Of a stretch of 64,000 nt of DNA, positions 1 to 7,233 are shown piece after piece. Origin of the DNA: Bacteroidota bacterium (lineage in GTDB: Bacteria > Bacteroidota > Bacteroidia > UBA4408); contig CAUJCU010000017.1 in assembly GCA_963169745.1 (NCBI GenBank), positions 1 through 64,000 on the forward strand, given 5' to 3'. The notes below the pieces were generated by a model, which was not told where the DNA came from, searched no databases, and saw only the letters and a list, made by a program, of their open reading frames with translations. Every line of letters begins with the position of its first letter. The stretch's first letter is position 1. Position numbers and translations under genes: made by a program.

Positions 1-1623
1 AGTGCTACCGGATGTGACAGTATCGTTACCTTAGACTTAACCATTAATAGCTTTGTTACGGGCACCGATGTTCAAACGGCTTGCAACACCTTTACCTGGA
101 TTGATGGTGTTACCTATAACGCGAGCACCAACACGCCAACTTTTACTTTAACCAGTGCCACCGGTTGTGACAGCATCGTTACCTTAGACTTAACCATTAA
201 TAGCTTTGTGACAGGAACTGATGTTCAAATGGCTTGCAACACCTTTACCTGGATTGATGGGCTTACTTACACGGCCAGCACCAATACCCCAACCTATACC
301 ATAGTTGGAGGAAGCACTACCGGTTGTGACAGCATCGTTACCTTAGACTTAACCATTAATAGCTTTGTGACCGGAACTGATGTTCAAACGGCTTGCAACA
401 CCTTTACCTGGATTGATGGGCTTACTTACACAGCCAGCACCAACACCCCAACTTTTACCATAGTTGGAGGAAGCACAACTGGTTGTGATAGTATCGTTAC
501 CTTAGACTTAACCATTAATAGCTTTGTTACGGGTACTGATGTTCAAACCGCTTGCAACACCTTTACCTGGATAGATGGTGTTACCTATACCGTGAGTACC
601 AATACCCCAACCTATACTTTAACCAGCGCTGCAGGTTGTGATAGCATTGTTACCTTAGATTTAACCATTAATACCTTTGTGACAGGAACTGACGTTCAAA
701 CGGCTTGCAATACCTTTACCTGGATTGATGGGGTTACTTATACCGCGAGTACCAACACCCCAACTTTTACCATAGTTGGAGGAAGCACTACCGGATGTGA
801 CAGTATCGTTACTTTAGACTTAACTATCAATACCTTTGTGACCGGAACCGATGTTCAAACCGCTTGCAACACCTTTACCTGGATTGATGGGCTTACTTAC
901 ACAGCCAGCACCAACACACCAACCTATACCATAGTTGGAGGAAGCTCTACTGGTTGTGATAGCATAGTGACATTAGACTTAACCATCAACAATACTGTTA
1001 CCGGCATCGATGTTCAAACAGCAATATTTTCCTACACTTGGATTGATGGAATTACTTATATGGCCAGCACCAACACCCCAACTTTTACCATAGTTGGAGG
1101 AAGCACTAGCGGATGCGACAGCATTGTGACGCTTAATCTGACTATTATTAACACTGTGACTGGTACAGATGTACAGATTGCTTGTGATTCATTTACCTGG
1201 ATTGATGGCATAACCTATACAGCCAGCACAAATATACCAACATTCACATATGTAGGAGGTAGTGTATTAGGGGCTGATAGTGTTGTTACACTCAATCTAA
1301 CAATTATTAATTCTGTAATCGGAACAGATTTCCAAACGGCTTGCAATGCATTTACTTGGATAGACGGAAATACATACACGGCCAGCACGAATAGCCCAAC
1401 AATCACTTTAACCAGTGCAGCCGGTTGTGACAGCATTGTGACCTTAGACTTAACCATCAACAATTCAGTTACGGGTACCGATGTTCAAACGGCTTGCAAC
1501 AGCTTTACCTGGATTGATGGAATTACCTATACCACTAGTACGAGTGCACCATTATATACTTATTTAGGTGGAGCATCAAGTGGTTGTGATTCAATTGTTA
1601 ATCTTCAATTAACAATAAATAAT
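1..1623 (+). repeat. Coding tandem repeat array, 153/159-bp units
   Basis: Units start at about 55, 208, 367, 526, 679, 838, 997, 1156, 1315 and 1468, after a partial unit at 1-54. Spacing is either 153 or 159 bp, so the frame is kept. The length difference comes from two alternative unit tails, TLTSAxG (short) and IVGGSxxG (long). The first six units are nearly identical in DNA: units 208 and 367 differ at about ten positions by eye. Units from 997 onward are clearly more diverged. Each unit normally has two cysteines. Confidence 0.93.
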
Positions 1624-3285
1624 GCATCAACAAATACTATTAACGCACAGATATGTTCAGGAAATACCTATCAGCTACCTGACGGAACCACCGTAACAAC
1701 AGCAGGTACATACACAACTACTTTAATAAATAGTGCTGGATGTGATTCTGTTATTTCCACATTACTTTCAGTAATACCATCAAGTTATGATACTATATAT
1801 GGCCAAGTATGTAACGGTCAGCCTTATATTCTACCTAATGGAACTATCGTAAATAATATAGGCACTTATGATGTCTTGTTTATTAATTCATTAGGTTGTG
1901 ATAGCGTAGTAACTACAATTTTAACTTCAGGGGCTAACTTAATTGCTACTGTACAGATTGCTTCGAGTCCTGCGGGCCCAATTTGTGCAGGTATTCCGGT
2001 TACATTCACAGCTGGTTCCATCAATGGAGGAAATAATCCAACATACCAGTGGTTTTTAAATGGTGTTGCTGTTCCTGGCCAAACTATGAATGAGTTTACA
2101 GCCTTTAATTTAGCAGATGGTGATCAAATTTATGTTGAAATAATTTCAAATGAGCCATGTGTAATAAATAATCAGGCGACTTCCAACATAATTGTACAAG
2201 AAATTACCGAGGTACTAACAGCGGCAGTAAACATTATAACAACTCAGGCTTTCCCGGCTTGTTCCGGTTATCCTATTATGTTTACAGCTACTATGATTAA
2301 TGGAGGATCAAGTCCCGCTTATCAATGGTATGTTAACGGAATTCCTGTAAATGGGGCTACAAACGATACGCTAATTATTGACAATTTGAGTAATAATGAT
2401 ATTATAACATTGAATGGCTACTCTTCACTTCCATGCATTAGCAATGAAGTGGCTTATTCAAATAACATAGTGGTAACATTAATTCAAAGTATATCTCCAA
2501 GCATTTATATCACATCAGACGATACTATAATTTGTGAGCAACAGTCTGTAACTTTTATAGCTCATATTTCTGGACAGGGATCAAGTTCTGTTGTGTATAA
2601 CTGGTTTATAAATAATAATTTAATTAGTACTACCTCTGATAATACATTCACTTTTAATGAATTTAATAATCTTGATAGTGTTACATGCCAGTTGGTTTCA
2701 TCTTATGTTTGTGTAAATCCTCCTATTATATTGTCTAATCCAATTAAAGTGGTGGTTAATCAAAATCCTCTTATTGATATGATAAACTATCAATACTTTA
2801 CGAATATTTGTGATACGGTGAATTTAATAACCTCAACAAATGTAATTAATCCTATATTTAATTGGCATTCAGATGCCTATCTGTCATGCAACGATTGTAT
2901 TGATCCGTTTTCTAATACAACTACTGATACTACCTGGTATTTTGTTACTGTAACTGATAAAACAACTGGCTGTTTTAACCAAGATTCTGCAATTGTTTAT
3001 CTAAACCCAGAGCCTGAAGCATTTGTTCCTACAGCATTTAGCCCGAATGGTGATTTTAATAACGACATATTACAAGTTAGAGGTAATTGTATAAAGAAAC
3101 TAACTTTCAAAGTTTATGACCGTTGGGGTGAACTTGTATTTACTTCTTTCAAACTTTCTGAAGGGTGGGACGGAACTTTTAAAGGGAGTCCTGCTGCATC
3201 TGATGTGTATGTTTATATACTTGATTACGTTTTGTACAACGATAAAATCATACACCAAAAAGGAAACGTTACACTTATCAGGTAA
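1..3285 (+). CDS. T9SS type B (gliding-motility C-terminal) repeat surface protein, 5'-truncated
   Basis: The reading frame is open from the first base of the window, so the true start lies upstream; 1094 residues are visible. From the N-terminal side there are one partial and ten full copies of a 51 or 53 residue unit (TACNTFTWIDG...GCDSIV). Two diverged relatives with CSGNTYQLPDG-like and GCDSV motifs follow, then about three Ig/PKD-like domains with YQW and YNW strands. The last ~90 residues match the gliding-motility-associated type B sorting domain (FSPNGDFNND, VYDRWGELVF, WDGTFKG). It is therefore expected to be exported by Sec, moved across the outer membrane by T9SS and shown on the surface as an adhesin or cell-wall-like filament. 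The ligand is unknown. It converges on mpl with 38 bases between the stop codons. Confidence 0.9.
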   Translation, partial: SATGCDSIVTLDLTINSFVTGTDVQTACNTFTWIDGVTYNASTNTPTFTLTSATGCDSIVTLDLTINSFVTGTDVQMACNTFTWIDGLTYTASTNTPTYTIVGGSTTGCDSIVTLDLTINSFVTGTDVQTACNTFTWIDGLTYTASTNTPTFTIVGGSTTGCDSIVTLDLTINSFVTGTDVQTACNTFTWIDGVTYTVSTNTPTYTLTSAAGCDSIVTLDLTINTFVTGTDVQTACNTFTWIDGVTYTASTNTPTFTIVGGSTTGCDSIVTLDLTINTFVTGTDVQTACNTFTWIDGLTYTASTNTPTYTIVGGSSTGCDSIVTLDLTINNTVTGIDVQTAIFSYTWIDGITYMASTNTPTFTIVGGSTSGCDSIVTLNLTIINTVTGTDVQIACDSFTWIDGITYTASTNIPTFTYVGGSVLGADSVVTLNLTIINSVIGTDFQTACNAFTWIDGNTYTASTNSPTITLTSAAGCDSIVTLDLTINNSVTGTDVQTACNSFTWIDGITYTTSTSAPLYTYLGGASSGCDSIVNLQLTINNASTNTINAQICSGNTYQLPDGTTVTTAGTYTTTLINSAGCDSVISTLLSVIPSSYDTIYGQVCNGQPYILPNGTIVNNIGTYDVLFINSLGCDSVVTTILTSGANLIATVQIASSPAGPICAGIPVTFTAGSINGGNNPTYQWFLNGVAVPGQTMNEFTAFNLADGDQIYVEIISNEPCVINNQATSNIIVQEITEVLTAAVNIITTQAFPACSGYPIMFTATMINGGSSPAYQWYVNGIPVNGATNDTLIIDNLSNNDIITLNGYSSLPCISNEVAYSNNIVVTLIQSISPSIYITSDDTIICEQQSVTFIAHISGQGSSSVVYNWFINNNLISTTSDNTFTFNEFNNLDSVTCQLVSSYVCVNPPIILSNPIKVVVNQNPLIDMINYQYFTNICDTVNLITSTNVINPIFNWHSDAYLSCNDCIDPFSNTTTDTTWYFVTVTDKTTGCFNQDSAIVYLNPEPEAFVPTAFSPNGDFNNDILQVRGNCIKKLTFKVYDRWGELVFTSFKLSEGWDGTFKGSPAASDVYVYILDYVLYNDKIIHQKGNVTLIR

Positions 3286-3323
3286 AAATTAATCGAATTA
3301 ATTTACTTGATTAGAATTTAGGG

Positions 3324-4685
3324 TTAATTATAAAGCGTTTGGGCCAAAGCCGTATAATCCAACCCGTCAAAATTGCCCGAGCTCATCATCAATAGGTTAC
3401 TATTAGAGATAGGAGCCCTTGTTAGAAATGATTTTAACTTATTGATTTCAGTAAAGACATGAATTTTTTTACTTAAAGAAAAAGCAATCTCAACTTGATG
3501 CTCAGACACCTCTTTTAGTTTCTTATGTGCTAAAGTATGCGGATTGAAATAAACAACAGCAATATCGGCAGCATCCATAGCACCTTTATACTCTAATAGA
3601 AATTTTTCGTTTAAGCTACTAAACGTATGCAGTTCCATGCAAGCAATGAGCTTCCTATTAGGAAATTGTTCTTTTACGGCTTCTGTTGTGGCTTTTAATT
3701 TAGATGGCGAATGTGCAAAATCTTTAAAAAAAGATGAGTCATTAGTTTGGCAAACAAGTTCTAAGCGCTTTGCTGCACCTTCAAAAGAAATTATAGCTTC
3801 ATAAAACTGAGAACTGCTAATATTTAAACTTTCACACACCATTCTGGCCCCATTCAAGTTTATTAGATTATGAGTGCCAAAAATCTTTAATGGGATTTCA
3901 TGTCCGTTATAAATAATATATGTAACTCCTTCTTTAATCTTGTATTCAGGATTTTGGTATGGCACAACCTTAATATCTTTTCTGCAATGAGAGGCAATAC
4001 TTTCAACTTCAGCGTCAGCACACATATAAATTAAAGTCCCATTTTCAGTAATTAGATCTACAAATATTTTAAATTGTTCTTTATAATTTTCAAAAGTTGG
4101 AAATACATTGATATGATCCCATGCAATACCACTGAGCAGTGCAATATTAGGATGATATAAATGGAACTTTGGCCTACGATCAATAGGAGAGGAGAGGTAC
4201 TCATCGCCCTCAACTATGGCAATTGATGCCGACTCAGAAAGTTTAACCATAGTGTCAAATCCAGTTAATTGAGCACCTACCATATAATCACAGTCAATAT
4301 GATGATAGTTCATAACATGCAGAATCATGGCTGTAATGGTAGTTTTTCCATGGCTCCCGCCAATTACAACACGAGTTTTATTCTTAGTTTGTTCATATAT
4401 ATATTCTGGGTAGGAGTATATTTTTAAACCCAGCTCTTTAGCTCTGATTAGTTCGGGGTTATTTTCACGGGCATGCATCCCTAAAATTACAGCGTCAATA
4501 TTAGAACTTAATTTATCTGGAAACCAACCTACAGCTTCCGGTAAAATTTCGGCTCTTTTTAATCTTGAAAGAGAAGGCTCACTAATTTCATCGTCAGAAC
4601 CTGAAACTTGATACCCTTTTTGGTGCATAGCTAATGCTAAATTGTGCATGGCGCTCCCACCAATGGCTATAAAATGAATATTCAT
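3324..4685 (-). CDS. mpl: UDP-N-acetylmuramate:L-alanyl-gamma-D-glutamyl-meso-DAP ligase (Mpl)
   Basis: This cytoplasmic Mur-ligase-family enzyme reattaches the recycled murein tripeptide to UDP-MurNAc, saving peptidoglycan fragments. The N-terminal Rossmann-like part starts IHFIAIGGSAMHNLA, typical of MurC/Mpl. The ATP loop GSHGKTT is at residues 110-116, and the central and C-terminal ligase domains follow, ending in a SSGNFDGLD segment characteristic of Mpl. The length of 453 aa is normal. The gene stands alone, convergent with the T9SS gene and divergent from the MBL-fold hydrolase. DapF, also in this window, makes the meso-DAP that such peptides contain. MurC is the nearest alternative, but the N-terminal and C-terminal signatures favour Mpl. 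Confidence 0.9.
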   Translation of the reverse strand: MNIHFIAIGGSAMHNLALAMHQKGYQVSGSDDEISEPSLSRLKRAEILPEAVGWFPDKLSSNIDAVILGMHARENNPELIRAKELGLKIYSYPEYIYEQTKNKTRVVIGGSHGKTTITAMILHVMNYHHIDCDYMVGAQLTGFDTMVKLSESASIAIVEGDEYLSSPIDRRPKFHLYHPNIALLSGIAWDHINVFPTFENYKEQFKIFVDLITENGTLIYMCADAEVESIASHCRKDIKVVPYQNPEYKIKEGVTYIIYNGHEIPLKIFGTHNLINLNGARMVCESLNISSSQFYEAIISFEGAAKRLELVCQTNDSSFFKDFAHSPSKLKATTEAVKEQFPNRKLIACMELHTFSSLNEKFLLEYKGAMDAADIAVVYFNPHTLAHKKLKEVSEHQVEIAFSLSKKIHVFTEINKLKSFLTRAPISNSNLLMMSSGNFDGLDYTALAQTLYN

Positions 4686-4801: not shown

Positions 4802-5641
4802 ATGCAATTACATGCAATCCATGCTGGAATGTTCAAATTAGATGGAGGAGCTATGTTTGGTGTAGTGCCAAAAACAATATGGAACAAGCTGAACCCTGCT
4901 GATGAGAACAATATGTGCTCCTGGGCAATGCGCTGTTTGCTTATTGAAGATGGAAATCGCCTTATTCTCATTGATAATGGAATGGGGAATAAGCAAGAGG
5001 CTAAATTTTTTGGACATTATTATTTACATGGCAATTATTCTTTAGAGAAATCGCTTCAAGAAAAAGGGTTTTCAATAGAAGATATTACAGATGTTTTCCT
5101 AACCCACTTGCATTTTGATCATTGTGGTGGAAGCATTGTACTTAATAAAAGTAAAAACATACTAGAACCGGCCTTTAAAAATGCTATTTACTGGAGCCAT
5201 AGTGAACATTGGGACTGGGCTGTTCATCCAAATGCCAGAGAAAAAGCTTCTTTCCTTAAAGAAAACATATTACCAATACAAGAAAGCGGACAGTTGAAAT
5301 TTTATGATATAGAAAGTAATTTCTCTAATAATTTCACTGTTGAAATAGTAAATGGCCATACCCAAAGTATGATGTTACCTTGTATAAAATACAAAAGTTA
5401 TAAGGTATTATTTGTTGCAGATTTATTGCCCTCCATAGCACATATTCCAATCCCATTTGTGATGGCTTATGACACACAGCCTTTGTTAACTCTAAAAGAA
5501 AAAGAAACTATTTTAAATAACGGAGTTGAAAAGAACACTGTTTTATTTTTTGAACATGATCCCTATATTGAATGTTGTAATTTAATTAGAACCGAAAAGG
5601 GAATAAGACCTCATGATACTTTTAATTTGAGTGTTTTATAG
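4802..5641 (+). CDS. MBL-fold metallo-hydrolase
   Basis: A 279-residue metallo-beta-lactamase-fold protein. The metal motif is THLHFDHCGG with H102, H104, D106 and H107. Further metal ligands are plausible in the NGHTQSM and FEHDPY segments. There is no signal peptide, so it is cytoplasmic. The layout (long N-terminal strand region, then HxHxDH near residue 102) resembles the lactonase/YtnP-like hydrolase branch, but the substrate cannot be told from sequence. It is divergent from mpl across 116 bp and about 190 bp upstream of the pseudo-receiver gene, so it is probably transcribed on its own. The ATG at 4802 is the first in frame and gives a normal family N-terminus. Confidence 0.85.
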   Translation: MQLHAIHAGMFKLDGGAMFGVVPKTIWNKLNPADENNMCSWAMRCLLIEDGNRLILIDNGMGNKQEAKFFGHYYLHGNYSLEKSLQEKGFSIEDITDVFLTHLHFDHCGGSIVLNKSKNILEPAFKNAIYWSHSEHWDWAVHPNAREKASFLKENILPIQESGQLKFYDIESNFSNNFTVEIVNGHTQSMMLPCIKYKSYKVLFVADLLPSIAHIPIPFVMAYDTQPLLTLKEKETILNNGVEKNTVLFFEHDPYIECCNLIRTEKGIRPHDTFNLSVL

Positions 5642-5827: not shown

Positions 5828-6211
5828 ATGGAATTAAAGGAACTTAAAGAAAAGAAAGTACTTGTAGTTGAAGGTGATTTTATAAATTCGTATATTTTAA
5901 AGCAATATTTAGATAACGATTTTAAAATGCTGTACGCCAAAAATTCATTTGAATTTGAGAAGATTATGAATGCAAACACCATTGACTTGGTGTTGTTAAA
6001 CACCCAATATACAAGTTACGAATTAAACCCTAACGAACTAATTAAATACATTAAAAATAAAGACAAAGAAAATCATATAAAAATAGTTGCCTTAAAGCAT
6101 AATAATGAAAATACAAGTAACTTGCTTGAAAAGGACTGCAATGGATTTATGGAAATGCCACATTGCAAAGATGAAATACTAAAAAAAATAATTGAAATAC
6201 TTAAAAACTAA
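5828..6211 (+). CDS. Degenerate receiver-domain protein (pseudo-receiver)
   Basis: About 127 aa, made of a single CheY-like fold. The start is taken at ATG 5828, because this places KKVLVVEGD at the usual strand-1 position; an upstream in-frame ATG at 5801 would add nine hydrophobic residues. All three phosphotransfer residues are altered. The phospho-acceptor Asp is Asn (LVLLN, N58), the Thr/Ser switch is Lys (IVALK, K90), and the conserved Lys-Pro is Met-Pro (MEMP). The acidic pair is reduced to E-G-D. It therefore should not be phosphorylated in the usual way and may work by binding or by mimicking one fixed state. It resembles the intact receiver that follows (YAKNS in both), suggesting an old duplication. 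The partner is unknown. Confidence 0.8.
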   Translation: MELKELKEKKVLVVEGDFINSYILKQYLDNDFKMLYAKNSFEFEKIMNANTIDLVLLNTQYTSYELNPNELIKYIKNKDKENHIKIVALKHNNENTSNLLEKDCNGFMEMPHCKDEILKKIIEILKN

Positions 6212-6306
6212 ACTGTCAAAACTGTCTTGTCCCTTTGAAACTCGAAGATGCAGCAAGACTTTTGTTCGTAATTATATAATGTTTATTTACAATAAATTTT
6301 AAATTT

Positions 6307-6720
6307 ATGGACGATATTTTACAAACTAAAGCAATTAACTCATATGGAAACAATACAGGATTGACTGTATTAATGGTTGAAGATGATTATATAAATATTT
6401 TTATGATGCAGCGTCTTTTTGAATCTATATTTAATATTACATACGCTAAAAATAGTTCAGAAGCACTAGTCTTTTTAAATCAAAATGTTTACGACTTAGT
6501 ATTAATGGATATTAATTTAGGTGAAGAAGGGGTTTCAGGTGTTGAAATTCTAAAACAAATGAAAACGGATAATAGGCACACCAGTACAAAAGTATTTGCT
6601 GTTACAGGATATGTGAAAGAAGGCGACAGAGAAAAATACATAAATCTTGGATTTGACGAACACTTCCCAAAACCACTGGCAAAAGATATGCTCATACAAG
6701 CGATTCAAAAGTTCTTCTAA
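6307..6720 (+). CDS. Stand-alone response regulator receiver (CheY-like)
   Basis: 137 aa, one receiver domain and no output domain. The catalytic set is complete: acidic triad E25-D26-D27, phospho-acceptor D68 in LVLMDIN, switch T100 in AVTG, and K122 in FPKP. A phosphorelay or histidine kinase elsewhere would be its donor; none is encoded in the window. It lies 95 bp downstream of the degenerate copy and may share its transcript. The 18-residue N-terminal extension before the first strand is polar and looks unstructured. Such single-domain regulators act through protein contacts, so the target cannot be read from sequence. Confidence 0.88.
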   Translation: MDDILQTKAINSYGNNTGLTVLMVEDDYINIFMMQRLFESIFNITYAKNSSEALVFLNQNVYDLVLMDINLGEEGVSGVEILKQMKTDNRHTSTKVFAVTGYVKEGDREKYINLGFDEHFPKPLAKDMLIQAIQKFF

Positions 6721-6870: not shown

Positions 6871-7233
6871 ATGATTGAATTTAAAGAAAAAATATATGAA
6901 GTTCTTCAACAAATGAATTATTCAGTAGGCGAATTAGCTGAACATTTAGGTATGACGCACGATGAACTTAGCTTTGCTATTGAAAATAAAAAGGTTGAGC
7001 TTAGAACACTAGAAAATATTTCTAAAGAGCTTCGAATACCACTCTATAGTTTTTTTGATAGCGAAGATTATGTACCCGTAAAAAGAAATAATGAAACACC
7101 TTTTTATATCAATAAAGCCTCTCAAGACATAGTTGATGCATTGCAAAAGGAAAATTCAATGTTAAAAAACGAATTAGAAAAATTAAGATTACAATTAAGT
7201 TCCTGTCAGAATAACGTAAATATGAATTTATGA
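6871..7233 (+). CDS. XRE-like helix-turn-helix protein with C-terminal coiled coil
   Basis: 120 aa. Residues ~1-65 look like a five-helix HTH of the lambda-repressor/XRE type: helix 2 VGELAEHLGM, turn, helix 3 HDELSFAIENKKV, then LRTLENISKEL. A linker (residues 68-90) and a heptad-rich tail (IVDALQKENSMLKNELEKLRLQL) follow, likely for dimerisation. A DNA-binding role is expected but not proven. The stop codon overlaps the start of the next gene (ATGA at 7230-7233), so the two products are probably made together. This is a regulator-plus-enzyme arrangement. Confidence 0.75.
   Translation: MIEFKEKIYEVLQQMNYSVGELAEHLGMTHDELSFAIENKKVELRTLENISKELRIPLYSFFDSEDYVPVKRNNETPFYINKASQDIVDALQKENSMLKNELEKLRLQLSSCQNNVNMNL

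Follow-up and report, generated by a model that had tools for sequence, protein, structure and literature searches.

A stand-alone pseudo-receiver encoded beside an intact single-domain receiver in two genomes of a Bacteroidota genus

INTRODUCTION

FixT and Osp are single-domain receivers that lack the acid pair, are not phosphorylated and inhibit kinases, as reported in PMC9430884 and PMC7078487. Osp binds the transmitter domain of CckA and inhibits its kinase activity (PMC9430884). Both proteins have been described in alphaproteobacteria, where their kinase targets are known. More generally, pseudo-receivers are estimated at about 6% of bacterial receivers in section 4 of a recent review (PMC12632262). 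According to section 7 of PMC4395418, Asn is the second most frequent ALR replacement of the phosphorylated Asp (16%), and a first acidic residue kept with the second lost is the common ALR pattern; the same article reports that the Lys position is still basic in 70% of ALRs.

Some pseudo-receivers are encoded, or work, with another regulator. Section 19 of the review (PMC12632262) describes CmrT of the CmrRST system and the WhiI-BldM pair, which controls genes. CmrR and CmrT are OmpR-family regulators. Within the Bacteroidia, a further point of comparison is what we term split hybrid kinases, in which a lone receiver gene comes after a kinase gene. Our searches of openly licensed papers showed no description of a stand-alone pseudo-receiver that forms a pair with an intact single-domain relative. 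Here, we describe such a pair.

RESULTS

Two receiver genes with unequal active sites

The window, by which we mean the whole 64,000-nucleotide stretch analyzed, belongs to a genome that is 99.96% complete (G000); three congeners (G001, G002, and G003) were compared with it. The features of the locus are as follows.

3324..4685, minus strand: Mur-ligase family gene, which we take to be Mpl-like; shared-locus marker
4802..5641, plus strand: MBL-fold hydrolase gene, best NCBIfam match YtnP (179.8 bits; cut-off 425); shared-locus marker
5828..6211, plus strand: pREC, ATG start, 127 amino acids, stand-alone pseudo-receiver
6212..6306, plus strand: gap between pREC and REC, 95 bp (12 bp in G002)
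6307..6720, plus strand: REC, 137 amino acids, intact single-domain response regulator with E25, D26, D68, T100, and K122

Alignment sets E15-G16 of pREC against the acid pair E25-D26 of REC, and N58, K90, and M110 at the Asp, Thr, and Lys positions. Only E15 is kept; the phosphotransfer residues are gone from four of the five conserved positions. A first-pass annotation had named three of these losses (N58, K90, and M110) and had called the downstream copy intact (D68, T100, and K122). Our check of coordinates, frames, and residues bears out the losses, the three REC residues are in place, and G16 is a fourth loss beyond those named. By alignment, G16 stands in place of the one acid-pair residue that contacts the metal directly, a role described in PMC12632262 (section 7). 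Among the four changes, G16 and N58 alone are common to the pREC orthologs of G000 and G002; position 90 is Lys in G000 and Pro in G002, and position 110 is Met and Arg, respectively. With its metal and phosphorylation positions replaced, pREC is probably unphosphorylatable.

According to Pfam, neither pREC nor REC has an output domain. A pattern search of the 95-bp gap between them found no terminator-like site, only a weak hairpin before a T-rich stretch, and 29 of 200 shuffled sequences folded as well or better (z = -1.18).

pREC retains a receiver fold. The Pfam Response_reg model matches it at 27.9 bits (E = 2.9e-6), slightly under the curated cut-off of 30.2, and matches the G002 ortholog at 18.5 bits and REC at 70 bits. 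An AlphaFold model, built from a four-row alignment of the window and L061 proteins, has a pLDDT of 79.5 and the strand-helix order of a receiver, with five strands and five main helices. Foldseek listed 50 matches for this model among solved structures, every one of them a receiver or a protein with a receiver in it; VIA-align Z reaches 18.5, and the CikA pseudo-receiver stands at rank 22 among those listed. The fold pattern that the first reading of the locus had seen in pREC is thus upheld by the Pfam match, the model, and the structural matches. Recognized as a receiver by sequence and by fold, and having lost key phosphotransfer residues, pREC is a pseudo-receiver: a lineage-specific example of a class already known.

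How does pREC compare with the described systems? Like FixT and Osp, it consists of one receiver domain with no output domain and a disabled active site, and by analogy with them it would be expected to remain unphosphorylated. Unlike them, it has lost only one residue of the acid pair, whereas Osp and FixT have lost both. Osp, for its part, keeps the phospho-accepting Asp (D51) that pREC lacks. The four-Cys Fe-S motif of FixT was also considered and rejected: the pREC cysteines are C104 and C113 in G000 and C57 and C125 in G002, and none are aligned. FixT and Osp have known targets in another phylum, whereas pREC is a Bacteroidota gene with a putative kinase target.

The Asn in place of the phosphorylated Asp, a fold recognized by Pfam, and the acid pair with its first residue kept and its second lost all match the ALR pattern. 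The former Lys position departs from the basic residue of most ALRs in G000 (Met) and conforms to it in G002 (Arg). What sets pREC apart from PsR/ALR proteins in general is that it stands alone as a protein and forms a pair with an intact single-domain relative. Being encoded beside another regulator recalls CmrT and WhiI, but those systems consist of OmpR-family regulators or control genes, whereas neither member of the present pair carries an output domain.

The pair is conserved at the same locus in a congener

We find an ortholog pair at the same locus in G002 (49 to 52% identity; pREC ortholog L037, L061), with the gene order of G000: Mpl-like gene, hydrolase, pREC, REC. pREC is therefore not a chance open reading frame. 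G000 itself has no second copy that we could find, the next match being REC. REC orthologs are present in both G001 and G002. In G001, the Mpl-like gene, the hydrolase, and REC are present and pREC is absent, with an unrelated gene in its place; tblastn detected no pREC remnant in the 500-bp stretch between hydrolase and REC (best E = 0.21). None of the four genes has a match in G003 at the thresholds used. The missing block may reflect a gap in that assembly, which has 270 contigs, and since the Mpl-like and hydrolase genes also lack a match there, loss of the pair cannot be judged in that genome. Thus, the pair occurs in two of four congeneric genomes, or two of the three that can be judged.

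The gene in pREC's place in G001 (L102, 12139-12387) encodes a separate protein of 82 amino acids without an assigned function. It has no Pfam or NCBIfam match; related sequences occur in 23 of 60 genomes, G001 included, and in neither G000 nor G002.

Wider searches returned no further pREC ortholog. The family search (eight genomes) found one only in G002, and profile searches of 395 class and 395 phylum genomes added none. These two sets are even draws from larger groups, overlap each other, and both include G000; in them, as in the search for REC relatives, at most the best 10 candidates per genome were scored. The two pREC orthologs score 236 and 255 bits against the profile, and other sequences about 54 or less. 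Outside G000, the phylum matches are receivers of hybrid kinases or receivers behind kinases, at 47 to 54 bits versus 236 for pREC. In five other genomes outside the genus, the class search matched receivers that, by eye, have Asp at the site. A pattern scan of genome contigs confirmed the G002 contig alone. Weaker matches (E of 0.001 or less), taken as a bulk count, occur in 21 of 60 genomes. The co-occurrence in Bacteroidota that the first-pass annotation had suggested checking was seen in two of four congeneric genomes and in no other genome sampled.

Several observations from these searches stand on their own. One phylum match at 49 bits, a 719-amino acid hybrid kinase (L189, G688; receiver at residues 512-630), carries Asn in place of the phosphorylated Asp (LILINLILSG). 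In the family, L104 to L106 are further tandem single-domain receivers; by eye, they have Asp and are of a different type. As for a viral origin of pREC, no relative was confirmed in viral contigs. In the window, downstream of REC, 6871-7233 encodes a small protein whose matches to Cro/C1-type HTH models are weak and fall below cut-off; this gene does not adjoin REC in G002. Upstream, 208-3285 holds a large repetitive open reading frame in which a unit of about 53 amino acids (VTGTDVQTACNTFTWIDG...) recurs several times in nearly identical form, as counted by eye.

pREC is very probably maintained by selection

Between G000 and G002, pREC has pS 0.91 and pN 0.29 over 125 codons, compared with 0.77 and 0.26 for REC, 0.70 and 0.17 for the hydrolase, and 0.69 and 0.22 for the Mpl-like gene. 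We quote no dN/dS ratio for pREC because its synonymous sites are saturated. The frame is nevertheless open in both genomes that carry the gene. In a neutral simulation (substitutions only, starting from G000 pREC, 500 replicates per distance), 11% of frames stayed open at 0.1 substitutions per site, 0.8% at 0.25, and 0 of 500 at each of 0.5, 0.8, and 1.0. Open frames at saturated synonymous divergence make decay unlikely, and pREC is very probably maintained by selection rather than decaying. The first-pass annotation had argued for retention under selection and had named stop codons as a sign of decay. The former gains support from the open frames, the substitution pattern, and the simulation, and the latter are absent from the pREC frame of both carriers.

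A duplicate caught before its frame breaks would explain several features: the C-terminal third is poorly conserved (8 of 36 residues), the former Thr and Lys positions drift, and G001 lacks the gene. Set against these are the two open frames at saturation, the failure of any simulated frame to survive the larger distances, and the first 89 residues, where pN is 0.18 and pS 0.98. We consider a duplicate of this kind very improbable, and pseudogene decay was rejected on the open frames and the substitution pattern.

Constraint on pREC is lopsided

The N-terminal part of pREC is under purifying selection. Identity between the two orthologs is 57 of 89 residues (64%) in positions 1-89 and 22% in positions 90-127 (Fisher P = 2.6e-5, with the split at 89 picked after the alignment was inspected; a split at 64 gives 0.62 versus 0.41). 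The C-terminal part is more relaxed (pN 0.55, pS 0.74). REC shows no such drop, with identities of 0.64 (residues 19-99) and 0.74 (100-137). All pREC conservation figures come from one sequence pair, G000 and G002. By element, identical residues in pREC are 10 of 11 in α1, 5 of 5 in β2, 8 of 11 in α3, and 4 of 5 in β4; the REC counts are 8 of 11 in α1, 3 of 5 in β2, and 5 of 11 in α3.

This pattern bears on the conjecture of the first-pass annotation that pREC could be a decoy or dimer partner of the active copy, and on the idea that pREC binds REC directly and so shifts REC's phosphorylation or output. Such a heteromer is favored by the two genes lying side by side in the same order in each genome that has pREC, and by the precedents of WhiI with BldM and, as proposed, CmrT with CmrR (PMC12632262, section 19). 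Those precedents, however, regulate transcription, and Pfam shows no output domain here. Nowhere is pREC less conserved than at its α4-β5-α5 face, through which receivers usually dimerize: 2 of 6 identical residues in α4, 0 of 2 in β5, and 2 of 13 in α5, counts that come from a single gapped pair whose alignment is uncertain in this region. In REC, the same face has 5 of 8, 5 of 5, and 7 of 12. A dimer partner would be expected to conserve the face between orthologs, as REC does and pREC, in the one pair compared, does not. The lopsided constraint, with no drop in REC, therefore argues against a classical α4-β5-α5 partner. Moreover, G001 retains REC in the absence of pREC, so pREC is not an obligate partner of REC. 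Direct binding of this kind is, on balance, rather unlikely.

The conserved α3 and β4 could instead point to a phosphorylation-independent binding or localization module that acts outside two-component signaling and shares the REC locus by descent only. FrzS offers a precedent on the α3-β4-α4 side (PMC12632262, section 19), and α1 of pREC differs from that of REC. However, α1-β2 is conserved besides α3, α4 is not, and pREC adjoins REC in both genomes; we regard a role outside two-component signaling as unlikely.

REC resembles detached receivers of hybrid-type kinases

In a 58-row tree, pREC falls among single-domain receivers of the REC type (93/77). In a 37-row tree (5 pREC/REC rows, 18 receivers from outside the genus, and 14 of the 58 earlier rows, the rest being omitted), a clade of pREC and REC is neither supported nor rejected: it costs 0.59 log-likelihood units (p-AU 0.466). 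The placement of pREC is unsure because its branch is very long, and an origin by recent tandem duplication of REC is neither shown nor rejected by these trees.

Within the class, REC has relatives in 17 genomes outside the genus at an E of 1e-20 or less. Twelve have a histidine kinase gene immediately upstream, one is fused to such a kinase, and four are without, as counted with a kinase profile built from few sequences. For three of the kinase-less relatives (L163, L169, and L177), one neighbor each was scanned with Pfam; the neighbor of the fourth (L168) is aldehyde dehydrogenase-like by eye. Because its relatives lie mostly behind histidine kinases, the best reading of REC is that of a receiver detached from a hybrid-type kinase. 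Its intact active site and its sequence group fit the receivers of split hybrid kinases, but no kinase adjoins REC in G000, G001, or G002; in the two genomes with the pair, pREC stands upstream instead.

That arrangement allows a further reading, in which the detached receiver lost its kinase neighbor in this genus and gained a pseudo-receiver in the kinase's slot, the two genes forming a two-protein switch. REC would keep the switching half (β4-α5) and pREC the docking half (β1-β4), and neither would carry a DNA-binding output. We think a switch of this design improbable.

Among REC's relatives and other receivers, further site and gene arrangements were seen. The kinase upstream of one relative (L166, G063, 1992-3343) is divided between two frames that overlap, through either a frameshift or an error in sequencing. 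Two orphan receivers branch with REC (90/86 in the tree) and have similar neighbors: L177 (G237, 1456-1884), with Glu at the phospho-Asp position (LIEI) and an E-S acid pair, and L169 (G327, 1486-1887), with Asp kept and an E-N acid pair. Judged from residues read by eye, these are further site-residue losses in REC's receiver group. Also by eye, L163 (G125, 1498-1857), which has no kinase neighbor, pairs E-N with a retained Asp. In L174 (G090), a tandem pair of single-domain receiver genes (915-1343 and 1471-1950), both with Asp, comes after a kinase gene. A second atypical receiver in this genus, with an N-S acid pair and Asp kept by eye, is found in G000 (L128, C21:121827-122216) and G002 (L143).

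DISCUSSION

We tentatively propose, by analogy with FixT and Osp, that pREC is a phosphorylation-independent modulator of the kinase that serves REC. Like REC, pREC would belong to the class of detached receivers of hybrid-type histidine kinases. It would act without phosphorylation through its conserved β1-α1-β2 and α3 parts, and would compete with, or inhibit, the kinase that phosphorylates REC, as FixT and Osp do with FixL and CckA. We infer the kinase target, the inhibitory sign, and co-expression of pREC with REC.

α1 is a kinase-docking side of receivers, and in known complexes the β5-α5 loop contributes to the contact with the kinase as well. The recurrence of the same pair, in the same order and beside the same two genes in G002, favors the modulator reading, as do the conserved α1, β2, and α3 of pREC, its place among REC-type receivers in the 58-row tree, and the kinase genes ahead of most REC relatives. 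Against it, the β5-α5 loop of pREC is not conserved, and pREC is dispensable, as its absence from G001 attests. A partner in common with REC is also called into question by α1, which reads SYILKQYL in pREC and IFMMQRLF in REC; because these helices differ, the two proteins may have different partners.

There is no kinase gene at the locus: on contig C17 of G000, the HATPase_c match closest to it lies at 115.8 kb, and the matches listed include none on C46 of G001 or C1 of G002, where the locus is found in those genomes. We compared 12 stretches, out of 21 HATPase_c matches in G000, and did not find a partner kinase among them; when the kinases that partner two relatives are used for comparison, the best match among the 12 is a hybrid kinase encoded on a different contig.

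How bacterial pseudo-receivers are switched on and off is still a mystery, in the words of a 2025 review (PMC12632262). The system described here is one lineage-specific case, seen in two genomes, and it is minimal: a single pseudo-receiver domain with no output domain, beside one intact receiver. The congener G001, which has REC without pREC, provides a natural contrast. pREC is perhaps a brake or modulator on the signaling route of REC, and the two proteins together would permit a clean test of the FixT/Osp type of inhibitor model in another phylum.
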